The notes under the pieces were generated by a model that saw only the letters and a program-made list of their open reading frames with translations, was not told the origin of the DNA and ran no database searches. The position numbers were made by a program, and so were the translations under genes. Of a stretch of DNA of 64,000 nucleotides, positions 45,421-56,888 are shown in pieces (positions within the stretch are counted from its first letter, which is position 1; each line of letters begins with the position of its first letter). This DNA comes from Actinomycetes bacterium (lineage in GTDB: Bacteria; Actinomycetota; Actinomycetes; Streptosporangiales; Streptosporangiaceae), in the NCBI GenBank assembly GCA_021793235.1, contig JAJYTD010000011.1:1-64000 (forward strand), written 5' to 3'.

Positions 45421-47880
45421 GTGAAGGCCATGGCACCTCAGAGCGCGCCGGCACGGCAGAACCTCCCACTGGACCCCGACAGTTTCATCGGTCGCGACCG
45501 CGACCTCAGCGACCTGCTTCGACTGCTCGACACGGATCGTGTGCTCACCCTGTGCGGTGCGAGCGGTATCGGCAAAACCCGGCTCGCGCTGCGCTTGGCG
45601 GTTCAGGCCACCGGGTCCTTCCCCGACGGAGTATGGCTCGCGGCCCTTGAGGACGTGTCCTCGTGCGAAGAGATCGCCTCCCGTATCGCCACCGCTGTCG
45701 GCGTCACCGAGGAGGTCGGCCACGCCCCGGCCGATACGCTCCGCGAGGCGCTGCGCAGTCGCCGCCTCCTGGTGGTGCTGGACGGCTGCGGCCACATCAC
45801 CGACCACGTCGCCGCCGTGGGCCGTGCGCTCATCGACTCCTGCCCCGAAGTCTCGCTGCTGATCACCAGTGAGGAACCGGTGCACCTCGATGGCGAGGCG
45901 ATCTGGCGGGTTCCTCCCCTGTCGCTGCCGCCGTGGAGCAGCGACCGCGACCCCGCGCGTTCAGAAGCCGTCCGGCTGTTCCTGGACCGGGCGCGGACCT
46001 CTGCACCCGGGTTCGAGGCCGCTGCCGGCGAGCTGCGCGTCATCGCCGACATCTGCCGGAGAATCGGCGGTATCCCGCTGTGCATCGAACTCGTCGCCGC
46101 ATGGGTGAGGCGGCTGCCCCTGGCGCAGATCGCCGCGGAGCTGGCCGAGCGCATACCGTTGTCGGCCGGCAACGGGCGCCCGAAGCCCGGCAGGTCCACG
46201 ATCCTGCGTATCGTGCTCGAATGGAGCCATGCGCTGCTGAGTGACTGTGAGCGCACCATGCTGCGGCGCCTGTCGGTGTTTCCCGACTGGGACCTGGACC
46301 TCGCCGAGGGGGTGTGCTCCATGGACCCGCTGCGGGAGCCCGACGTCCTCGATCTCGTGTCGGCTCTGGTTGATCATTCACTGATCACAATCATCGGCGA
46401 ACACGAAGGGCGTGTCCGCTACCGGCTGCTCGGCCCGATCCGCCGCTTCGCCTCCGCGCGCCTGGCCGCGGCCGGTGAGGAGGCGGCGATCCGCGAGCGC
46501 CATGCCGAACAGATGGTCGCGATCGCCGAGGCCCTCGGCCGGGCGACCGTTCTCGGCCGGGCGATGCCCTGGCCGGAGCGCTTCGCGTACTGGCGCCGCG
46601 CGGTAGCCGAATACGGCAATCTCCGCTCCGCCCTGCACTGGTGCGCCGCACACGGCCGCATCCACGATGGCCTGCGCCTGTGCACGGGGTTGCGCCCGTT
46701 CTGGATCACCGGTTACCACTTCGCCGAGGGCAGCTACTGGAGCGACCTCTTCCTCGGTATGGAGGGCGGATCACAGTCCCTGCGCGGACGTGTCATGGTG
46801 CGTCGTGCCGAGCTCGCCTGGGCACAGCACGACCACGAAGGCACTGTGCACTTCGCGGAGGAGGGATTGCGGCGCTGCCGTGAGGCCGGAGACACCCAGT
46901 CGGTGGCCTTGGCCCTGAACCTGCTGGCCATGGTCGGCATCCACACCGGCGAACACGATCGCGTCGAAGCCCACCTGGTGGAGGTGCAAAAGCTCGCCCG
47001 CGAGACCGGTGACCTGTGGAACGAGGCCGTCTCGCTCGGCACCCAGGGCACACTCACCGCCCGCCGCGGCGACTTCGCTGGAGCCGACACGCTCTACAAC
47101 ACGGCGCTGATGATCATGCGCGGTATGGACCACCGGTGGGGCGTGGGGGCCACCCTCATCCGTCAGGGCGTCGTGGCAGAGGAGGGCGGCGACCTGTTGG
47201 GCGCCGACCGCTGCTACCGCGAGGCCCTCGACCTCCAGCGCAGCATGGGCATCACGCCCGGACTCGCGCGCTGCCTGACCGGTGTGGGCCGGATCGCACA
47301 CGCTCTGGGCTCCACCGCCCAGGCCTACGACTACCTCAGCGAGAGCCTGCTGCTGAGCCGTTCCACCGGGCAGCGTTCAGGTGTCGCCGCCACGCTCGCC
47401 TCCATCGCACGGATCGCCGCGGATCAGGGCCTTGCGGAAGAGGCGTACCGACTGGCAGGAGCGGCGGACGCGCTCTGGGAGAACGCGGGCCGTCCCCGCT
47501 CCGTCCGTCCCCGGACGGTGGATTCGGCTGAGGGAGATGGCCTCGACGCCTCCGCTTCGGCCTCCTGGCGGGAGGAGGGACGCGGTCTCGACATCGATGA
47601 GGCCGTGGCCATGGCGCTGCGCGTCACCGATGCGGGACGGGCGCCCCGTCAGCGCCCCGTACGGGCCCAGAGCACCGAGCCGCCGGAGAAGGTCCTGACC
47701 CGCCGGGAGCACGAGATCGCCCAATTGATCGGCCAGGACCAGAGCAACCGGATGATCTCCGAGCAGCTGTTCATCACGACCACCACGGTCGCGCGGCATG
47801 TCGCCAACATCAATCGCAAGATGGGGTTCAATTCACGCAAGCAGATCGCTGCATGGATCAACCGGCGTATTGCGGACTGA
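45421..47880 (+). CDS. STAND-type LuxR family regulator 2
   Basis: An 819-residue paralogue of the preceding regulator with the same order of parts: DSFIGRDRDLSDLLRLL, P-loop LCGASGIGKTRLAL (46-53), Walker B LLVVLDGCG, VLEWSHALLSDCERTMLRRL, TPR-like helices to about 680, a linker, and the LuxR helix-turn-helix LTRREHEIAQLIGQDQSNRMISEQLFITTTTVARHVANINRKM. The DNA-recognition helices differ clearly from regulator 1, so the two probably bind different sites. GTG 45421 and ATG 45430 are both possible starts. Confidence 0.92.
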   Translation: MKAMAPQSAPARQNLPLDPDSFIGRDRDLSDLLRLLDTDRVLTLCGASGIGKTRLALRLAVQATGSFPDGVWLAALEDVSSCEEIASRIATAVGVTEEVGHAPADTLREALRSRRLLVVLDGCGHITDHVAAVGRALIDSCPEVSLLITSEEPVHLDGEAIWRVPPLSLPPWSSDRDPARSEAVRLFLDRARTSAPGFEAAAGELRVIADICRRIGGIPLCIELVAAWVRRLPLAQIAAELAERIPLSAGNGRPKPGRSTILRIVLEWSHALLSDCERTMLRRLSVFPDWDLDLAEGVCSMDPLREPDVLDLVSALVDHSLITIIGEHEGRVRYRLLGPIRRFASARLAAAGEEAAIRERHAEQMVAIAEALGRATVLGRAMPWPERFAYWRRAVAEYGNLRSALHWCAAHGRIHDGLRLCTGLRPFWITGYHFAEGSYWSDLFLGMEGGSQSLRGRVMVRRAELAWAQHDHEGTVHFAEEGLRRCREAGDTQSVALALNLLAMVGIHTGEHDRVEAHLVEVQKLARETGDLWNEAVSLGTQGTLTARRGDFAGADTLYNTALMIMRGMDHRWGVGATLIRQGVVAEEGGDLLGADRCYREALDLQRSMGITPGLARCLTGVGRIAHALGSTAQAYDYLSESLLLSRSTGQRSGVAATLASIARIAADQGLAEEAYRLAGAADALWENAGRPRSVRPRTVDSAEGDGLDASASASWREEGRGLDIDEAVAMALRVTDAGRAPRQRPVRAQSTEPPEKVLTRREHEIAQLIGQDQSNRMISEQLFITTTTVARHVANINRKMGFNSRKQIAAWINRRIAD

Positions 47881-48265
47881 TGGGCTCCACGGCTATCGCC
47901 GCCAGATGCCACGGCACCTCCCGGATGGAATCTACATATGCATGTGCACACTCCGATGCATGTGCAAAAGCGCGTGGCACGCTAGACTCTTCCTATGAGT
48001 CCGCGTTCGGCCCCGCACGGGAGGGTGAGCGGCACGAGCTCGGGCTCAGGCATCCTGGAGATGCTTCTCCGGGAAGCCGCGGAGGCGGCGGTCGGCTCGC
48101 GTCCCTCGATTCGGGTTCCCCGAGCGGCGGAACAAGCAGGCCCATGCTTCCCGGCTCACCGGAGAACCGTGCGGCCTCGGGTGCGTAGAGGGGAGGCACC
48201 CGGGGCTTCCGCAAGCACGGCGCTACCGGGCTCGCCACGTGGAGGGGGCGTGACGAGCCCGGGTC
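47881..48265. promoter_or_regulatory. Gap with paired ATGCATGTGCA repeats and a possible leaderless promoter
   Basis: The 11-mer ATGCATGTGCA occurs at 47938-47948 and 47956-47966, 18 bases apart, in an AT-rich patch. TAGACT at 47983-47988 resembles a -10 box, and an ATG lies at 47995, suiting a leaderless start. The 94-codon frame from there is Arg/Pro/Gly-rich and may not be a protein, so I leave it uncalled. The repeats could be a binding site for one of the two adjacent LuxR regulators. Confidence 0.4.
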
Positions 48266-49171
48266 GTGATCACGGATAAGCGACCTGGGGGAGGCATGGG
48301 GGGCGACCCACGATCCGGTGGTCTTGGACCGGCCCGGATCCGCCTGATCGACGCCGGAACCGACGACGAAGCGGGTCCGGTGGGCTCACTCACCGGCGGA
48401 CTGCTCGACCGGCTGCGGCGCCGGGACCTGCGCGCGACCGTGGTGGATTCCCGCGGCAACAGCACCGACACGGTCATCTTCGCGGGCACCATCGAGCGCG
48501 CGGCGGCGGGACTGAGTCGCAGAGGGACGCACCCCGGTGATGTCATCGGTATCCTCGCCCCGGTCTCTTTGGACCGGCTCACCGCGGTCTACACCGTGAT
48601 GGCCGCGGGTGGAATCGCGCTGCCGCTCGAACTGGACTCGGACCTGGAGACACTGATCGACATTCTCACCGCGTCCGACGTCCGGCTGCTCCTGGTGGCG
48701 GCGCCGCTGTCCGAAGTCGCCTTGGAATTGGCGGATCGATCACGGGTCCGACAGGTGATCGCCTTCGGAGACGCGCCGGAGACCACCCCGTTCGGCGAAC
48801 TGCTGCTGCCCAGTCCGGACGGCAGCGGATACGATCCCGCACGCGGTCTGTTCCACAACGGCCTCCTCGGCTACCAGGCCACAGACAACGGCGTGTGCAC
48901 CACGTTGAGCCCGCACGATGAACTGCTGAATATGTTCCACCGGTTCTCGGCCTCCCTGCAGCTGACCTCCGATGACACCGTCGCGGTGGGACCGGGCATG
49001 CCCGAGTCCGTGCGGGCGGTACTGGCCGCCCTGGCGATGTGGAACGGCGCGGCGGTGGTCGCTCCCGCCGGTGGGAGCGGTCAGGGCGCCCGTGGGGGCT
49101 TCTCGGCGCTCGACGTCACCGTAGGCGGCTGCCCCACCCCCGCGCGCGTCGGCCCGGTGCACCACCGCTGA
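48266..49171 (+). CDS. Truncated/degenerate ANL-superfamily (AMP-binding) N-domain protein
   Basis: A 301-residue protein similar only to the N-terminal part of acyl-CoA synthetases and adenylation domains: TVIFAGTIERAAAGLSRRGTHPGDVIGILAPVSLDRLTAVYTVMAAGGIALPLELD, then DVRLLLVAAPLSE. Where the phosphate loop (YSSGTTGxPKG) should come it reads GLFHNGLLGYQATDNGVCTTLSPHDELLNMF, without the Ser/Thr/Gly/Lys residues. The adenine-binding motifs and C-terminal lid domain are missing. It cannot be a normal adenylating enzyme: either a decayed remnant, or a protein reused for ligand binding. It follows the two LuxR regulators. GTG 48266 is used; ATG 48296 is possible. Confidence 0.65.
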   Translation: MITDKRPGGGMGGDPRSGGLGPARIRLIDAGTDDEAGPVGSLTGGLLDRLRRRDLRATVVDSRGNSTDTVIFAGTIERAAAGLSRRGTHPGDVIGILAPVSLDRLTAVYTVMAAGGIALPLELDSDLETLIDILTASDVRLLLVAAPLSEVALELADRSRVRQVIAFGDAPETTPFGELLLPSPDGSGYDPARGLFHNGLLGYQATDNGVCTTLSPHDELLNMFHRFSASLQLTSDDTVAVGPGMPESVRAVLAALAMWNGAAVVAPAGGSGQGARGGFSALDVTVGGCPTPARVGPVHHR

Positions 49172-49270
49172 CACCGCGGCGGATACAGCGGTCCGCCCCT
49201 ACAGGCACCCCTCCCGAGGGCAAACGGCAGTGCCCCGCCGCACCGCGGAAAAACCCGCCCGAGACCGGCG

Positions 49271-49762
49271 CTACCGCGGGATGTCGATTTCGAACCAGAC
49301 GACGTGTGTGCTGTCGGTCCAGTACTCGCCGCTGCGCGAGGTGCAGCTCTCGATAATGAGCTTGCCCCGCCCGTAGTCTCCGTTGTCGGCACGGGTGGCG
49401 CCGAAACCGCTGGCCGCCTCGGCGCTCTTCTCCCCCTGATCGGCCACCGCGACCCGCACACGGCCCCGGCCGGACCGGATGAACAGCGTCATCACCCCGC
49501 CTGTCTGTCCAGAACGCGAATGCAGGAGGGCGTTGGTGGCCAGTTCGCTGGCCGCGAGCTCCGCGTCGTCCAACACCGTTTCCGGGGGCTTGGCACGCTC
49601 CAGGAACGCACGGACCCGGGCACGGATCGATCGCACGGCGGTCAGGTTGCCGACGCAGCTCCACACGGTGTGGTCGGTCGCGTCCTCGACGGGCTCGCTC
49701 GCCTCCAGCTCGGGCGAGGGGCCGACAGCGGCGCGCTCCCCGAGTCGCTGCGATTCGGTCAT
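49271..49762 (-). CDS. RsbW-like ATP-binding regulatory protein
   Basis: About 163 residues with a GHKL-type ATPase domain of the RsbW/SpoIIAB class: DDAELAASELATNALLHSRSG is the N-box with its conserved Glu and Asn, RVRVAVADQGEKSAEAA is the G1-box (DxG), and GRGKLIIESCTSRSGEYW the G2 region. In actinomycetes such proteins act as anti-sigma factors or in phosphorylation switches. No sigma factor or anti-anti-sigma gene is adjacent. ATG 49762 is preceded by GGGAG; 49786 is an upstream alternative. Confidence 0.82.
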   Translation of the reverse strand: MTESQRLGERAAVGPSPELEASEPVEDATDHTVWSCVGNLTAVRSIRARVRAFLERAKPPETVLDDAELAASELATNALLHSRSGQTGGVMTLFIRSGRGRVRVAVADQGEKSAEAASGFGATRADNGDYGRGKLIIESCTSRSGEYWTDSTHVVWFEIDIPR

Positions 49763-49786
49763 CCCCGTCACACTCCCAATCACCAC

Positions 49787-50142
49787 CGGGCGATAGCCGA
49801 CGGCCTCACCTTAGACAACGGCGCACCATGACCAGGACAGCACACGGCAGCCACATTCTTCACGGATACCCCACAAAAGGCGGCCATGTGTCCCTTCGCG
49901 ATACGACAAAAATTCCGTGCTGAACTCACATAACAGCCTATGGTCTGCGTTTTTGCAAAATAGCGGCCAGTCGCGGCGACGCTGTGGCGTTGGTCCCGAT
50001 CCCGGCCGCAGACCGCCCAGGACACGATCCGGTGAAACGCCTGACACGGACCCCGTTAGCAACGATAATCGTTCCCAATCCCAGTGGCGGCGGCTGTCAA
50101 GCGGCGCTGCCGCCCCGATCCGCGACCCGTGAAAGGCGCCCT
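49787..50142. promoter_or_regulatory. Upstream region of the CooC-like gene
   Basis: 356 bases of lower GC content than the genes around it. It contains the palindrome at 50061-50073. No other gene is supported; the plus-strand frame open from 49984 has no protein-like character before 50143. Confidence 0.5.
50061..50073. promoter_or_regulatory. Candidate Fur-family operator (CooC-like gene)
   Basis: AACGATAATCGTT, a perfect palindrome around a central base, 70 bases before the GTG start of the CooC-like ATPase. Its CGATAATCG core also occurs (as CGATTATCG) in the palindrome at 51351-51365 before the ABC importer. The form resembles Zur/Fur boxes of the TGATAATCA type. Confidence 0.55.
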
Positions 50143-51108
50143 GTGAAGATCGCATTCGCCGGCAAGGGCGGCAGCGGCAAAACCACGCTGTCCGCACTGT
50201 TCACTCGCTATCTTGCCGCCTCAGGACTCCCTGTCGTGGCGATCGACGCCGACATCAATCAGAATCTGGGCACGGCTCTCGGCGTGGCACCGGACCGCCT
50301 CGCCCGCACCCCGCCGCTCGGAGCCCACCTCCACGAGATCAAGCAGCTGCTGCGCGGCGACAATCCGCGTATCGCCTCGGCCGAAGAGATGGTCAAGACG
50401 ACCCCGCCCGGCCGCGGTTCGCGCCTGCTGGACTTCTCCCCCGGCAACCCGATCCACCAGCGGTTCGGCTGCAGCGTGGAAGGCGCGACGCTGATGCTGA
50501 CCGGGCCGTTCAGTGAGGACGACCTCGGCGTGTCCTGTTACCACTCGAAGATCGGCGCGGCCGAGCTCTACCTGAACCACCTGGTCGACCGGCCCGGTGA
50601 ATACGTGGTGGTGGACATGACCGCCGGCGCGGACTCCTTTGCCTCCGGCCTGTTCACCCGCTTCGACGTCACCTTCCTGGTCGCCGAACCCACTGTGCGC
50701 GGCGTGGGCGTCTACCGGCAGTACGCCCAATACGCCGCCGACCATGATGTGACCATCAGCGTCATCGGGAACAAGGTGCAGGACGAGGCGGATGTGGACT
50801 TCCTGCGCGAGCACGTGGGCGACGCGCTCGCGGCGTGCTTTGGCAGCTCCTCGTTCGTCCGCTCCATGGAGAAGGGACGCCACCCGGGGCTCGACGAGCT
50901 CGAAGGGGGCAACGCCAAGACGCTGGCCTGGATGCGCGACACCGTGGATGCAGCGCCCAAGGACTGGGCCCGGTTCACCCGGCAGGGCGTGGAGTTCCAT
51001 CTGCGCAACGCACGCGCATGGGCGAATGAGGCCACCGGATCCGACCTGGCCGCGCAGGTCGACCCGGACTTCGTGATGGGTCCCGAGGCCCTCGCCGAGC
51101 AGCGGTGA
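50143..51108 (+). CDS. CooC/MinD-like P-loop ATPase
   Basis: A 321-residue deviant-Walker ATPase. AFAGKGGSGKTTLSALFTRYLAASGLPVVAIDADINQNLG holds the signature Lys (KGGSGKT, residues 8-14), YVVVDMTAGADSFASGLFTRFDVTFLVAEPTVRGV is the Walker B/switch region, and VIGNKVQDEADVDFL the N-K base-recognition motif. The closest described relatives are CooC-type nickel-insertion ATPases, though the typical CxC metal site is not evident. GTG 50143 follows AAAGG. Together with the metal-type operator upstream and the Opp/Nik importer next door, a role in metal (Ni or Zn) handling is plausible but inferred. Confidence 0.75.
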   Translation: MKIAFAGKGGSGKTTLSALFTRYLAASGLPVVAIDADINQNLGTALGVAPDRLARTPPLGAHLHEIKQLLRGDNPRIASAEEMVKTTPPGRGSRLLDFSPGNPIHQRFGCSVEGATLMLTGPFSEDDLGVSCYHSKIGAAELYLNHLVDRPGEYVVVDMTAGADSFASGLFTRFDVTFLVAEPTVRGVGVYRQYAQYAADHDVTISVIGNKVQDEADVDFLREHVGDALAACFGSSSFVRSMEKGRHPGLDELEGGNAKTLAWMRDTVDAAPKDWARFTRQGVEFHLRNARAWANEATGSDLAAQVDPDFVMGPEALAEQR

Positions 51109-51194
51109 GGGCGGCGGGCCGGTGCCCGGTCCGGGTACCGGCCCGCGATGGCTGGACGGCGCCGACCTGGACGACGAACCAGGGTGCACAAAGT

Positions 51195-51223
51195 GGTTTA
51201 ATAACTACTTAAAGTAGTAAACC
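51195..51223. repeat. AT-rich interrupted palindrome
   Basis: ACTACTT-A-AAGTAGT at the centre (51204-51218) with outer GGTTT (51195-51199) and AAACC (51219-51223) arms. It has the size and symmetry of a repressor operator. It lies between the CooC-like stop and the terminator, so its target is unclear. Confidence 0.5.
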
Positions 51224-51277
51224 AACCTTAAACAGCAAGATTTAACTAAGCAACGGCATCAATTGCATCACGAGGCC

Positions 51278-51306
51278 ACGGCCCCGAACTCCAGGTTCGG
51301 GGCCGT
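51278..51306 (+). terminator. Hairpin terminator after the CooC-like gene
   Basis: Perfect 12-bp stem ACGGCCCCGAAC/GTTCGGGGCCGT with a 5-base TCCAG loop. Confidence 0.75.
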
Positions 51307-51350
51307 ACAGCATGCTCTTCACAGGCACTCGCCACCACACGGCACACCGC

Positions 51351-51365
51351 TTGCGATTATCGCAA
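51351..51365. promoter_or_regulatory. Candidate Fur-family operator (ABC importer operon)
   Basis: TTGCGATTATCGCAA, a perfect palindrome around a central base, about 250 bases before the substrate-binding protein start. Read on the other strand its core is CGATAATCG, identical to the site at 50061-50073. TTGC...GCAA arms are also reminiscent of the Streptomyces nickel regulator Nur box. Confidence 0.55.
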
Positions 51366-51613: not shown

Positions 51614-53212
51614 GTGCCGTCCATGCACAACCACCAGGAACATCAGCCCGCACGATCCGATAAGGGCAGCGCTTTCACCCCCAGCCGCCGCAGCGTCCTG
51701 AAAGCCGGAGCCGCCGGTGCCGTCGTCGTCCCGGCGCTTTCGGCGTGCGGTGGCGACGGCTCCAGTGGCTCCGGCTCCGGCGGGCGCCTCAAGGTCGGGA
51801 TCGCCGGCGGTTCCGCCAAGGACACACTCGACGGCCACAAGGCGGTCGACAACACCGACATCGCTCGGGCCCACGCCCTCTATGCCGGCCTGTGCTACTT
51901 CGACACCGACTACACGATCAAGATGGCCCTCGCCGAGTCGATCGAGCCCAACGATGAGGCCACCGTGTGGACCGTCAAGCTCAAGGAGGGTCTGAAGTTC
52001 CACGACGGCTCCGATGTCACCGCCGACGCCGTCATCTTCACCCTCCAGCGCATCACCGACCCCGACGATCCCACCTCCCTCGCCGGGCAGCTCACCACAT
52101 TGGACCGGGACAACCTGAAGAAGGTCGACGACCTGACCGTCGAGGTCCCGTTCACCGATCCGTTCGTCACCTTCCTCGACGTCATGGCGGAGTACCTCGC
52201 CGGCATCGTGCCCGAGGGATTCGATCCGGAGAACCCGGTCGGCGCCGGACCGTTCAAGTTCAAGGAGTTCACCCCCGGCGAACGCAGCGTGTTCGAGGCG
52301 CACACCGACTACTGGCAGGAGGGCATGCCCTACGTCGACGAACTGGAGATCATCAACTTCCCCGACGAGACCGCTCGAGTCAACGCGCTGGTCGGCGGGC
52401 AGGTCGACGTGATCAGCCAGTTGCCGCACAGCCAGATCGAGGTCGTCGAGGCCGATGACAACCTGGAAGTCCTCGAATCCGAGACCGGCATGTGGCTGCC
52501 CTTCACCATGCGCGTGGACAAGGCGCCCTTTGACGACGAACGGGTGCGCCAGGCGTTCCGGCTGATCGTCGACCGCGAGGAGATGGTCGATCAGGCCCTG
52601 TCCGGCCACGGCACCGTCGGCAACGACCTCTACGGCCGGTTCGACCCGGCCTACAACGAGGACCTGCCGCAGCGCGAGCAGGACATCGAGAAGGCGAAGG
52701 AGCTGCTCGCCGAGGCCGGCCACGAGGACGGGCTGGAGGTGGAGCTCGTCACCGGCCCGATCAGCCCCGGCGCGGAGGCCGCCGCCCAGGTCTTCAAGGA
52801 GCAGGCGGCCAAGGCCGGCGTCACGGTGAAGCTCAAGCAGACCAACTCCACCGAGTACTACGGCGACAACTACCTCCAGTGGACGTTCGCCCAGGACTTC
52901 TGGAGCAGCCGCAACTACCTGTCCCAGGCCGCCCAGGGCTCCCTGCCCGGCGCGGCGTTCAACGAGACGCACTGGGATGACGAAGAGTGGGTCGAGATCA
53001 TCGAGGAGGCCCGCGCAACGGTCGATGAGGAGAAGCGCGCCGAGCTCATCAAGCAGGCCATGAAGATCGAGTACGAGCGCGGCGGATACATCGTCTGGGG
53101 TTTCGTCAACACGGTCGACGGCTTCAACAAGAAGGTGAAGGGGCTCGAACCCTCGGTCACCGGCCACCCACTGACGACCTACGGATTCCACCTGATGCGG
53201 ATCGAGGGGTAG
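51614..53212 (+). CDS. Family 5 extracellular solute-binding lipoprotein (peptide/nickel/metallophore type)
   Basis: A 532-residue substrate-binding protein. It has a Tat-lipoprotein signal (SRRSVLKAGAAGAVVVPALSACGG, Cys acceptor), then a full SBP_bac_5 domain with LAESIEPNDEATVWTVKLKEGLKFHDGSDVTADAVIFTLQRI, GAGPFKFKEFTPGERSVFEAH and DDERVRQAFRLIVDREEMVDQALSGHG. Family members bind peptides, nickel complexes or opine-type metallophores; sequence alone does not say which. GTG 51614 has GAGG at 6 bases; the frame is open from 51470. It is the first gene of a four-gene importer operon with a Fur-like palindrome upstream. Confidence 0.92.
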   Translation: MPSMHNHQEHQPARSDKGSAFTPSRRSVLKAGAAGAVVVPALSACGGDGSSGSGSGGRLKVGIAGGSAKDTLDGHKAVDNTDIARAHALYAGLCYFDTDYTIKMALAESIEPNDEATVWTVKLKEGLKFHDGSDVTADAVIFTLQRITDPDDPTSLAGQLTTLDRDNLKKVDDLTVEVPFTDPFVTFLDVMAEYLAGIVPEGFDPENPVGAGPFKFKEFTPGERSVFEAHTDYWQEGMPYVDELEIINFPDETARVNALVGGQVDVISQLPHSQIEVVEADDNLEVLESETGMWLPFTMRVDKAPFDDERVRQAFRLIVDREEMVDQALSGHGTVGNDLYGRFDPAYNEDLPQREQDIEKAKELLAEAGHEDGLEVELVTGPISPGAEAAAQVFKEQAAKAGVTVKLKQTNSTEYYGDNYLQWTFAQDFWSSRNYLSQAAQGSLPGAAFNETHWDDEEWVEIIEEARATVDEEKRAELIKQAMKIEYERGGYIVWGFVNTVDGFNKKVKGLEPSVTGHPLTTYGFHLMRIEG

Positions 53213-53260: not shown

Positions 53261-54211
53261 ATGACACGTCTGATCCTGCAGCGCCTCTTCTACGGCCTGC
53301 TGACCCTGTTCGTGGTCTCCCTTGTGGTGTTCCTGGCGACGCAGGCGTTACCGGGCGACGCGGCCCGGGCCATGCTGGGCCGCGACGCCACCCCTGAGCG
53401 CCTCACCGCATTGCGCGAACAGCTCAACTTGAATGATCCCGTGGCCGTGCAGTACGGGAAGTGGATCGCCGGGCTATTCGTGCTGAACCTGGGGGAATCC
53501 TTCGCCAACGCCATGCCGGTCGCGGAGTACCTGGGGCCGCGGGTGTCCAGCAGCGTGGCCCTGATGGCGCTGGCCGCCATCGTCGCCACCCCGATCGCGG
53601 TGGCCATCGGCGCCTACAGCGCCCTGCGCCGGGACCGCGCCGCCGACCACGCGACGTCGATGGTGACGCTGATCACCGCCGCGGTCCCGGAGTTCGCGGT
53701 GGGCATCCTGCTGGTCCTGGTCTTTGCCACCGGATCCCTGCAGCTGTTCCCCGCGGTCTTCGCCGGCAGTTCCGAAGCGGTCCTGGAGAGCCCCGAACAG
53801 CTCGTGCTGCCGGTGGCGACCCTGGTGATCGCGGTGAGCCCGCCCATCATCCGCATGATGCGGGCCTCGATGATCGAGGTGCTGGAGAGCGAGTACGTAC
53901 AGCAGGCCCGGCTCAAGGGCCTGCCGGAGCGCACGGTGATCTGGCGGCACGCCGCACCGAACGCGATCGGCCCGGTCGCCCAGGTCATCGCCGTCCAACT
54001 GGGCTGGCTGGCCGGCGGGGTGGTCGCCATCGAGTTCCTCTTCCGCTTCCCCGGCGTCGGGATGGCCCTGATGGACGCGATCGACAACCGCGACATCCCG
54101 GTCATCCAGGCCGTGACACTGCTGATCGCCGCCATCTACATCGTGGTCAACCTGCTGGCCGACATCGTGGGCCTGGCCGCCAACCCGAAGGTGAGGGTGT
54201 CGTCCCGATGA
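53261..54211 (+). CDS. ABC importer permease 1 (DppB/OppB/NikB type)
   Basis: A 316-residue inner-membrane permease with six helices. It begins TRLILQRLFYGLLTLFVVSLVVFLATQALPGDAARAMLGRDATPERL, the DppB-type N-terminus, and has the cytoplasmic loop EYVQQARLKGLPERTVIWRHAAPNAIGPVAQVIAVQLGWLAGG that docks on the ATPase. AAAGG precedes ATG 53261. The stop overlaps the next permease by ATGA. Confidence 0.95.
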   Translation: MTRLILQRLFYGLLTLFVVSLVVFLATQALPGDAARAMLGRDATPERLTALREQLNLNDPVAVQYGKWIAGLFVLNLGESFANAMPVAEYLGPRVSSSVALMALAAIVATPIAVAIGAYSALRRDRAADHATSMVTLITAAVPEFAVGILLVLVFATGSLQLFPAVFAGSSEAVLESPEQLVLPVATLVIAVSPPIIRMMRASMIEVLESEYVQQARLKGLPERTVIWRHAAPNAIGPVAQVIAVQLGWLAGGVVAIEFLFRFPGVGMALMDAIDNRDIPVIQAVTLLIAAIYIVVNLLADIVGLAANPKVRVSSR

Positions 54212-55098
54212 GCACCGCAACCCTTGAGACCGCTCCCGCCGATCCCCCCGCACCGCGCCGCCGCTCCGGACTGCTGCACGCCGCGTGGCGCCACGGCCGC
54301 ACCAAGGCCGGCGTGATCATCGTCGGCCTCGTGGTAGTGGTCGCGATCGCGGGCCCCTTCCTCAGCCCCTACTCCCCCACCGAGCCCGTGGGCCCGCCGA
54401 ACTCGACCGGTGTGGAGGAGAGCCTGTTCGGCACCGACGGGATCGGCCGGGACGTCTTCAGCCGGTTCCTGCACGGCGGGTACACGCTCATCGGGATCGC
54501 TGTCCTGGCGGCGCTGGGCGGTGTGGCCGCCGGCGCCGTCATCGGTATCGTCGCGGGCTACCTCCGGGGATGGCTCGACGAGTTCCTCATGCGTACCAAC
54601 GACATGGTGCTGGCCTTTCCGCAACTCGTCCTGGCGCTGCTGGTGATGTCGATCATCGGCCCGCAGGTGTGGCTGATCGTGCTGCTGATCGGCGGCTCGC
54701 ACGCGTCCCGGGTCGCCCGGGTCGCCCGCGAGGCGACGCTCAAGGTCATCGAGCAGGACTTCATCAAATCCGCGGAGGCCATCGGTCTGCCGCGCTGGAG
54801 GATCATGGCCACAGAGATCCTGCCCAACATCAGCAGCCCACTGCTGGTGGAGCTCGGCCTGCGGATCACCTATTCGGTCGGCCTCATCGCGACCCTCAGC
54901 TTCCTCGGCATGGGGCTGCAGCCGCCGACCGCCGACTGGGGGCTGATGATCAACGAGAACAGGGTGGCCGTCACCGTGCAGCCCTGGGCGGTGGCCCTGC
55001 CGGTGGGCGCGGTCGCGTTGCTGACCATCGGCGCGAACCTCATCACCGACGGGCTGTCCCGGGCCTCGATCGGCATCGACCGAGGGGTGGAGGAATGA
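54208..55098 (+). CDS. ABC importer permease 2 (DppC/OppC/NikC type)
   Basis: A 296-residue partner permease. It has the OppC-type N-terminus with GPFLSPYSPTEP and LFGTDGIGRDVFSRFLHGGYTLIGIAVLAALGG, and the EAA-like loop DFIKSAEAIGLPRWRIMATEILPNISSPLLVELGLRI. It overlaps both neighbours by 4 bases, so permeases and ATPase are translated together. Open-frame sequence before 54208 is the shadow of permease 1. Confidence 0.95.
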   Translation: MSTATLETAPADPPAPRRRSGLLHAAWRHGRTKAGVIIVGLVVVVAIAGPFLSPYSPTEPVGPPNSTGVEESLFGTDGIGRDVFSRFLHGGYTLIGIAVLAALGGVAAGAVIGIVAGYLRGWLDEFLMRTNDMVLAFPQLVLALLVMSIIGPQVWLIVLLIGGSHASRVARVAREATLKVIEQDFIKSAEAIGLPRWRIMATEILPNISSPLLVELGLRITYSVGLIATLSFLGMGLQPPTADWGLMINENRVAVTVQPWAVALPVGAVALLTIGANLITDGLSRASIGIDRGVEE

Positions 55099-56783
55099 GC
55101 AACCAACAGCCCGCCAACAGCGGGAACAACGAGCACACCGCGTTAGAGGTCGACGGCCTGACCGTTGTCGGGCGCCCCTCTGACGTCGAGATCATCAGCG
55201 GCATCACGCTGCGCGTCCGGCGCGGTGAGATCCTCGGCCTGGTCGGCGAGTCGGGGTCGGGCAAGACCACGCTGGGGCTGTCGCTGCTGGCGCACTGCAA
55301 GCGCGCCACCGAGATCACCGCGGGGGCGATCTCGCTCTCCGGCACCCCCCTCCTCGGACGCACAGAGAACGAGGTCCGGCAGATGCGCGGCCGGTCGGTC
55401 GCCTACATCCCGCAGTCTCCGGCCTCCGCCCTCAACCCGGCGCTGCGGCTGCGCACGCAGCTCAGCGAGGCGCTGCACGCCGGTCCGGCCCCGGGCAACG
55501 GTACAGCCGGGGACACACCCCGTGTGCTCGACCGCGTCCGCGAAGTGCTGCGCGAGGTCGCGCTGCCCGACGACGACGCGTTCCTGAAGCGCTACCCGCA
55601 CCAGCTCTCCGGCGGCCAGCAGCAGCGTGTGGCTATCGCTATGGCGTTCATCGGCTACCCCGACCTGATCGTGCTCGATGAGCCGACGACCGGCCTGGAC
55701 GTCACCACGCAGGCGCACGTTCTGCAGACCATCCGCCGGATGACCCGCGATTACGGCACCGCCGGCGTCTACATCAGCCACGACATGGCCGTGGTCGCCG
55801 ACCTGGCCGACGACATCGCGGTGATGTACCAGGGTGACGTGGTGGAACGGGGTGCGGCCAACGATGTGCTCGCCGCTCCCCAGCACCCCTACACGGCGCG
55901 GCTGCTGCGCGCGGTCCCATTGCTGAAGACCGGCGGCCATGCCGAGCCCGAGGAGGAGCCCGGCGACGCGCTGTTGCGGGTGCGCGGCCTGCAGGCGAAC
56001 TATGGCTCCGCCCCCGTGCTGCAGAACATCGACATCGACGTGCGCCGCGGCCAGTGCGTGGCGCTGCTCGGCGAGTCCGGATCCGGCAAGACGACCCTGT
56101 CGCGCTCCGTCGTGGGCCTGCACCACCGGTTCACCGGGGAGGTCCTCTTCGACGGCGAGGCGCTGGCCCCCAGCAGCTACCGGCGCACGGCCGAGCAGCG
56201 GCGGCGCGTGCAGTACATCTTCCAGAACCCCTACGAGGCACTGAACCCGCGCAAGCGCGTACGGGACCTCATCCTGGCGCCCTACATCCATCTGGCGGGG
56301 CAGCCGACCGACCCCGACGCGGTGGTCCACGAAGCCCTGGAACGGGCCGCACTGCCCGCCGCCTACGCAGAGCGCTTCCCCGAACAGCTCAGCGGCGGCG
56401 AACGGCAGCGCGTGTCCATCGCCCGCGCGATCGCCACCAAGCCCGACCTGCTCATCTGCGACGAGATCACCTCCGCGCTGGACGTGTCGGTACAGGCGGA
56501 GATCGTGCAGCTGCTGCGCAACCTGCAGGACGACGGTATGGCGCTGCTGTTCGTCACGCACAACATCGCGCTGGTCTCCAACATCGCCCAGAAGGTGGCG
56601 GTGCTGAACAAAGGCGAGATCGTGGAGTACGGGCACGTGGGGACGGTCATGTCCGACCCGCGGCACTCCTACACCCGCGCGCTCATCGCAGACACCCCCG
56701 ACTTCGAGCTTTCCTTCTCCGAGTCGCCGCTGCACCGGACGATCCAGGCCCCACCCGTGAAAGCCGCCCCCCGCGCCGAGTAG
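55095..56783 (+). CDS. Fused double ABC ATPase (DppD-DppF type)
   Basis: A 562-residue protein joining two ATPase domains. Domain 1 has LVGESGSGKTTLGLSLLAHC, signature LSGGQQQRVAIAMAFIGYPDLIVLDEPTTGLDV and switch His in YISHDMAVV. Domain 2, from about 295, has LLGESGSGKTTLSRSVVGLHH, LSGGERQRVSIARAIATKPDLLICDEITSALDV and VTHNIALVSN. Each ends in the oligopeptide-family C-terminal motif (APQHPYTARLLRAVP; DPRHSYTRALIADTP). This powers the importer with the two preceding permeases. A 25-bp perfect inverted repeat follows the stop. Confidence 0.95.
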   Translation: MSNQQPANSGNNEHTALEVDGLTVVGRPSDVEIISGITLRVRRGEILGLVGESGSGKTTLGLSLLAHCKRATEITAGAISLSGTPLLGRTENEVRQMRGRSVAYIPQSPASALNPALRLRTQLSEALHAGPAPGNGTAGDTPRVLDRVREVLREVALPDDDAFLKRYPHQLSGGQQQRVAIAMAFIGYPDLIVLDEPTTGLDVTTQAHVLQTIRRMTRDYGTAGVYISHDMAVVADLADDIAVMYQGDVVERGAANDVLAAPQHPYTARLLRAVPLLKTGGHAEPEEEPGDALLRVRGLQANYGSAPVLQNIDIDVRRGQCVALLGESGSGKTTLSRSVVGLHHRFTGEVLFDGEALAPSSYRRTAEQRRRVQYIFQNPYEALNPRKRVRDLILAPYIHLAGQPTDPDAVVHEALERAALPAAYAERFPEQLSGGERQRVSIARAIATKPDLLICDEITSALDVSVQAEIVQLLRNLQDDGMALLFVTHNIALVSNIAQKVAVLNKGEIVEYGHVGTVMSDPRHSYTRALIADTPDFELSFSESPLHRTIQAPPVKAAPRAE

Positions 56784-56797
56784 CCCCGCCGCCCTTG

Positions 56798-56862
56798 GCG
56801 CTGATCTTGACGTTGTGCACCTCAAAACGCGCGCGGAAGGTGCACAACGTCAAGATCAGCGC
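56798..56862. terminator. 25-bp perfect inverted repeat, probable bidirectional terminator
   Basis: Arms 56798-56822 and 56838-56862 are exact reverse complements (arm begins GCGCTGATCTTGACGTTG) around a 15-base loop. It lies between two convergent genes, 14 bases after the ATPase stop and 26 bases before the GNAT stop, so it can end both transcripts. The arm is longer and less GC-biased than ordinary terminators and may be a mobile or repeated genome element. Confidence 0.75.
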
Positions 56863-56888
56863 AGAAACCGCCCGGACCTTTCGCGCGC

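Follow-up and report, generated by a model that had tools for sequence, protein, structure and literature searches.

CooC and CooC1 are nickel-inserting ATPases of CO dehydrogenase maturation (structure 3kje). They have a deviant Walker A sequence, GKGGxGKTT, a SIMIBI/MinD-class fold and the nickel motif CYC. The COG0523/CobW zinc GTPases (ZagA/ZigA, YciC and MRF) are also SIMIBI-class, nucleotide-driven proteins; these are under Zur control and have a CxCC motif (PMC9164220). Known members of the Zur regulon are importers, spare ribosomal proteins and CobW-type GTPases. In the part of PMC6103462 cited here, no CooC-like ATPase is named.

The DNA described here, termed the window, is a 64-kb stretch of an actinobacterial genome and contains a gene for a CooC-like ATPase, followed by four genes of an Opp-type ABC importer (Table 1). 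A sequence-only reading joined the two through a pair of palindromes with an identical core and proposed a metal-regulated module for uptake and allocation. The analysis presented here separates them. The CooC-like ATPase is probably a hitherto unrecognised zinc-starvation protein, and zinc control of its gene is well supported by sequence comparisons. Nickel as the metal, or one joint regulator for ATPase and importer, is not supported.

Table 1. Features of the ATPase and importer region, with positions in the window
Feature	Position	Strand	Remarks
First palindrome, AACGATAATCGTT	50061..50073	n/a	Overlaps the -10 element; kept in Nocardiopsis-type relatives
Sigma-70-type promoter of the CooC-like gene, CTGACA-17-GATAAT	50041..50069	+	10/12 positions
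Zur box, TGGGAACGATTATCG	50063..50077	-	0 mismatches to TGNNAAYGRTTNTCR; orthologous boxes exist
CooC-like SIMIBI/MinD-class ATPase, 321 aa	50143..51108	+	GTG start; Pfam, profile, structure
C132-Y133-H134 codons, corresponding to the C-Y-C metal motif of CooC1	50536..50544	+	131/131 sequences
12-bp G+C-rich hairpin between ATPase and importer	51278..51306	+	Likely transcription end, no T run; -28.6 kcal/mol for 51262-51322
Second palindrome, TTGCGATTATCGCAA	51351..51365	n/a	Presumed importer operator, not Zur-like; conserved in relatives
Family-5 solute-binding lipoprotein	51614..53212	+	Tat-type signal (SRRSVLKAG..LSAC); start GTG 51614 or ATG 51623, uncertain
Opp/Dpp-type permease B	53261..54211	+	Domain/family matches
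Opp/Dpp-type permease C	54208..55098	+	Domain/family matches
Fused double ATP-binding subunit	55095..56783	+	ABC_tran in two stretches

The CooC-like ATPase

At the amino acid level, the ATPase displays the Pfam domains CbiA and AAA_31, and a cobW domain is absent. The AlphaFold2 model (pLDDT 90.8, falling below 50 at residues 124-133, part of the CxH loop) aligns with CooC1 (3kje) at Z 19.5 over 248 residues, with an rmsd of 4.2 and 21% identity; MinD-class folds score about as well as CooC1. A profile built from 37 relatives matches CooC1 at E 1.5e-19 and places C-Y-H on C-Y-C. This replacement of CYC by CYH is invariant in the 131 family members compared. It had been proposed that the ATPase handles nickel, as CooC-type ATPases do, but the CxC of CooC reads CxH here and the proposal is not supported. 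In CooC each subunit of the dimer contributes one CxC; with CxH in its place, a dimer could bind a single zinc ion through a pair of Cys and a pair of His residues, and such a Cys2-His2 interface site would suit zinc. No CO dehydrogenase gene is recognised among the open reading frames neighbouring the ATPase gene.

Genes for a LuxR-type ATPase regulator, a short AMP-binding-like protein and a histidine-kinase-like protein lie at 45421-49786 and are kept beside the ATPase gene in Nocardiopsis-type genomes. Just 3′ of the ATPase gene there is an A+T-rich inverted repeat, TGGTTTaataaCTACTTAAAGTAGTAAACCA, at 51195-51225, which includes the perfect 7-1-7 palindrome ACTACTTAAAGTAGT at 51204-51218.

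The Zur box upstream of the ATPase gene

Inspection of the promoter reveals that the Zur box TGGGAACGATTATCG covers its -10 element, and TGACA-N17/18-GATAAT is found at the matching place in about 20 relatives. Orthologs of the ATPase were collected from 151 genomes of the family and from named genomes. A box with at most one mismatch to the consensus TGNNAAYGRTTNTCR lies upstream of 101 of 110 orthologous genes, compared with 14 of 1193 other genes in the same loci; the 110 upstream regions come from related orthologs and do not represent 110 independent cases. The consensus was drafted after part of the sites had been seen, and published motifs were used in a control retest. The 17-znuA motif TGANAANNNTTNTCA, as quoted in PMC5472717, is present with two mismatches or fewer in 98 of the 110 upstream regions (31/1193 for other genes), and the motif TGANNATSATNNTCA, from the same source, in 49 (46/1193). 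The window site taken alone has three mismatches to the S. coelicolor ChIP motif.

In relatives from Streptosporangium, Actinomadura, Catenulispora and Streptomyces, the corresponding region reads TGAAAACGGTTTTCG, TGATAACGGTTTTCA, TGAAAATGATTTCCA and similar. Strand and position of the box vary between lineages among the 110 upstream regions, as would be expected of an operator that is retained while its surroundings change. Almost every Nocardiopsis-type genome has the palindrome AACGATAATCGTT, or a near copy, 5′ of the ATPase gene, also at loci that have no importer. The palindrome may be read as two overlapping boxes with centres six bases apart.

Zur boxes in the genome and in relatives

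Exact matches to TGNNAAYGRTTNTCR occur four times in the window's genome: at the CooC-like gene, at znuA, at a FecCD-type importer gene and at a gene for an ArsP_1-type permease. The same genome has a Zur-type (Fur-type) gene joined to znuC/znuB-type genes. Thirteen related genomes contain 93 matches to the consensus and six to the reversed pattern. Genes behind the boxes examined in relatives include those for ZnuA, an ABC-3 permease, L33, L31, CobW, FecCD and FUR, and gene types such as these make up the known Zur regulon, as given in part of PMC6103462. The sequence-only reading had predicted a Fur-family site, with Zur among the candidates, upstream of the CooC-like gene. Both the boxes of the orthologs and this genome-wide company of zinc genes support the prediction. 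Absence of the sites before orthologous genes would have refuted the reading, and they are present. A search of the open-access literature found no paper that links CooC-like ATPases, or NucS, to Zur.

In Streptomyces himastatinicus (locus L141) the ATPase gene is part of a complete zinc island. Here znuA/C/B-type genes are transcribed away from the genes for the ATPase and for a protein of the SCO5389 family, and Zur boxes lie in the DNA separating znuA from the ATPase gene. The ATPase and SCO5389-family genes are followed by a permease pair and by genes for FUR, CobW, S18, a second CobW and L33; at the end of the island is a family-5 binding protein gene, some 70 bases downstream of the perfect Zur box TGACAATGATTATCG. 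Fur/Znu-like neighbours are also present at other Streptomyces ATPase loci. Most Streptomyces sampled have a copy of the ATPase gene without a Zur box, and some have a second copy that has the box and adjoins an SCO5389-family gene. The copy without a box indicates that the work of the ATPase family is not confined to zinc starvation; the family seems to combine a general function with a form for zinc starvation. The possibility that the Zur-controlled Streptomyces copy is a metal-free spare of the other is rejected, as both have CYH.

The SCO5389-family protein and nucS

The ATPase and the SCO5389-family protein (NF040488; KH_NucS_shadow, PF20704) have a strictly nested distribution. Both are found in 113 of 151 genomes, the SCO5389-family protein only in nine, neither in 29, and the ATPase alone in none (Fisher 1.6e-23, a value uncorrected for descent among these related genomes). 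In many loci the two genes are adjacent. The window's genome encodes an SCO5389-family protein scoring 198.8 bits against a cut-off of 75, but its gene is on another contig (C94) and is unlinked to the ATPase gene. The KH-like label of the family derives mainly from the Pfam name, and structural matches are weak. For the protein fold, Foldseek gives no match at E <= 0.001, the best VIA-align score is Z 5.9 and Krr1-type KH chains reach about Z 4; a search of the PDB with the family profile gives E 0.87 at best.

The S. coelicolor nucS gene is SCO5388 (PMC5290159). In several Nocardiopsis-type genomes the SCO5389-family gene and nucS (Pfam NucS_N/NucS_C) are transcribed away from each other, and a Zur box lies in the intervening DNA. 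In the window's genome the SCO5389-family gene also faces nucS, with only a weak box, AGAAAATAGTTATCA, which has two mismatches. The loci with a Zur box between the two genes include four from Thermobifida and Nocardiopsis-type genomes (L282-L285), where zinc control of mismatch repair is a possibility. Four other loci (L287-L290) belong to genomes with two SCO5389-family copies, one with a Zur box and one without.

Alternatively, the ATPase may be under Zur control without being a metal carrier. As a SIMIBI ATPase it would then act on the SCO5389-family protein, by remodelling or positioning it, in a role related to RNA, the ribosome or DNA repair that is needed when zinc is short. The nested co-occurrence, the KH_NucS_shadow name, the adjacent nucS gene with a Zur box in the intervening DNA, the similar scores of MinD-class folds and CooC1, and the Streptomyces copy without a box are all consistent with this; however, the invariant CYH falls exactly on the CooC metal motif, and an ATPase with no metal to carry is considered rather unlikely.

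The importer and the second palindrome

Both palindromes, AACGATAATCGTT and TTGCGATTATCGCAA, were confirmed at the places where they had been noted, as was their identical nine-base core on opposite strands. The window contains two copies of the core, CGATAATCG, one on each strand; two copies are not seen in any of 100 dinucleotide shuffles, which have a mean of 0.28. Perfect 6-1-6 palindromes with seven or more A/T number just four in the 64 kb, and these include both of those noted. Genome-wide (4.8 Mb), however, the core is found 12 times, with a single repeat accounting for four of the occurrences, and thus the bare core does not mark a regulon. Each full palindrome is kept 5′ of its own gene in related genomes, which indicates that neither is a mere chance occurrence. 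Their flanks are consistently different, with AAC..GTT at the ATPase gene and TGC..GCA at the importer. The two palindromes are therefore not the same site, and a single regulator deduced from the common core is rejected. The repeat appears in the genome as an identical 39-nt stretch, ACTGCGCGCGCTTCGCGATTATCGCGCAGCGGGGGCCCT, at four places (L001, L002, L009 and L011), and holds the same nine-base core.

The hairpin between the genes, followed by the second palindrome, indicates that ATPase and importer genes are most likely separate transcription units. The importer palindrome is kept in about nine loci. As TGCGATWATCGCA it has three mismatches to the Zur box, and a perfect Zur box is absent from all 20 importer upstream regions. 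One relative (locus L216, genome G017) has the importer and its palindrome but neither the ATPase nor a Zur box. These properties argue against one regulator for both genes, and the putative operator of the importer differs from the Zur box of the ATPase gene. At the RNA level, nothing reaches the Rfam gathering level in the leader 5′ of the importer, and the sub-threshold matches listed look like chance. Downstream of the importer genes, at 56793-56866, is a long inverted repeat (GCGCTGATCTTGACGTTGTGCACCT...), probably their transcription end, which gives chance matches to Rfam microRNAs.

Zinc, or a zinc-carrying metallophore, might nevertheless link both genes, with the importer serving zinc uptake and controlled by Zur on a degenerate site or by a second regulator. 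In addition to the common core, several gene arrangements point in this direction. Where a genome has a close importer, it mostly adjoins the ATPase gene, and in a Streptosporangiales MAG (L101) the two are divergent. The importer upstream region of N. trehalosi (L083) holds a Zur box with one mismatch. In three Streptomyces loci (L234, L235 and L246) the Zur-linked ATPase copy is flanked by a divergently transcribed, distantly related family-5 importer (31% identity over 314 residues), and the binding protein gene with the perfect Zur box in the S. himastatinicus zinc island is a 53% relative of that importer. Against a zinc importer in the window are the poor fit of the second palindrome and the independent distribution of the two: the importer is missing from many relatives that have the ATPase and its box, and the ATPase from three genomes that have the importer, namely that of L216 and two further ones. 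A zinc role for the window importer is considered unlikely. The proposed uptake and allocation module is likewise not supported as an obligate pair, but the Streptomyces family-5 subfamily that accompanies a Zur-linked ATPase speaks in its favour. This subfamily, which comprises the importers of the three Streptomyces loci and L141:19684-20951, is possibly a zinc or zincophore importer.

Copies of the W-centred palindrome elsewhere are found beside IclR, TetR and XRE genes, and one is near a gene for a 3-hydroxyacyl-CoA dehydrogenase. A distant homolog of the importer has as neighbours a 3-hydroxyacyl-CoA dehydrogenase-type enzyme, a BKACE enzyme and an IclR gene. These IclR and enzyme neighbours weakly favour an organic substrate, under a regulator of the IclR type.

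Nickel or opine metallophores had also been suggested as substrates. Among the below-threshold NCBIfam matches of the binding protein, the best is indeed to an Opp model of the nickel type, and the fused ATP-binding subunit scores above the cut-offs for NikD and NikE, which may also be true of other Opp-type ATPases. However, binding protein and permeases are under every NCBIfam equivalog cut-off listed, and the binding protein is far below those for Opp5A_nikA (180.5 versus 600 bits), NikA (98.9 versus 393) and CntA (78 versus 800). The window's genome has what is presumably a Nur-like gene (L170), and the TTGC..GCAA of the importer palindrome resembles the S. coelicolor Nur box, although the spacing differs; an exact search for that box in ten relatives yields one copy, in one genome. 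With the CxC motif missing from the ATPase, and other copies of the palindrome beside IclR, TetR and XRE genes, it is very improbable that the importer takes up nickel or an opine metallophore under Nur or another Fur-type regulator while the ATPase handles nickel.

Proposed role of the ATPase

The explanation preferred here, and considered likely, is that the CooC-like ATPase is a Zur-controlled zinc-starvation protein which probably loads or rations zinc, or remodels a client, together with the SCO5389-family protein, and that the importer is separate. It builds on the conserved sites and their match to the Zur box, the company of zinc genes, the change from CYC to CYH and the co-occurrence with SCO5389. 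Zinc-loaded Zur, bound over the -10 element of the promoter, would keep the CooC-like gene off; when zinc is short, Zur would leave and the ATPase would be made. The ATPase dimer may then bind its zinc ion between the subunits, and ATP would probably be used in zinc loading or rationing, or in chaperone-like remodelling of a client, through interaction with the KH-like partner. In several relatives, a Zur box also precedes the SCO5389-family gene. The adjacent importer would form a separate transcription unit and respond to another regulator, perhaps of the IclR type.

A wider proposal is that the CooC-type ATPase with CxH in place of CxC and the KH-like protein encoded beside NucS form an undescribed zinc-starvation pair of actinobacteria, with the ATPase loading or rationing zinc and the KH-like protein under Zur control, through which zinc status reaches RNA or DNA maintenance. 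This is put forward tentatively and considered less likely than not. If the nucS link is real, zinc supply would be tied to actinobacterial mismatch repair. With a Zur-controlled ATPase of the CooC class, the zinc-starvation response would also have nucleotide-driven proteins of two types. In addition, a family annotated merely as generic P-loop ATPases gains a testable function, and the SCO5389/KH_NucS_shadow family a testable context.

Comparison with known systems

The ATPase resembles CooC/CooC1 in the deviant Walker A sequence, the fold and the position of the metal motif, but differs in having CYH for CYC and a Zur-type box. With the COG0523/CobW zinc GTPases it shares the SIMIBI class, the use of nucleotides and the apparent placement under Zur; Zur boxes are likewise found at CobW-type genes of relatives, and the S. 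himastatinicus island has such genes beside the ATPase gene. In contrast to these GTPases, it is of the MinD/CooC type, has no CobW domains and displays CxH where they have CxCC. The Zur box, the Zur protein and the company of znuA, L31/L33/S18 and CobW genes are those of the actinobacterial Zur regulons of S. coelicolor, C. glutamicum and mycobacteria, to which the CooC-like ATPase would be an addition. The importer has the parts of Opp/Dpp/Nik-type systems, i.e. a family-5 binding protein, two permeases and a fused ATP-binding subunit, but its binding protein and permeases do not reach the listed equivalog cut-offs of these systems. The SCO5389/KH_NucS_shadow family is the co-occurring partner of the ATPase, although the two genes are unlinked in the genome of the window.
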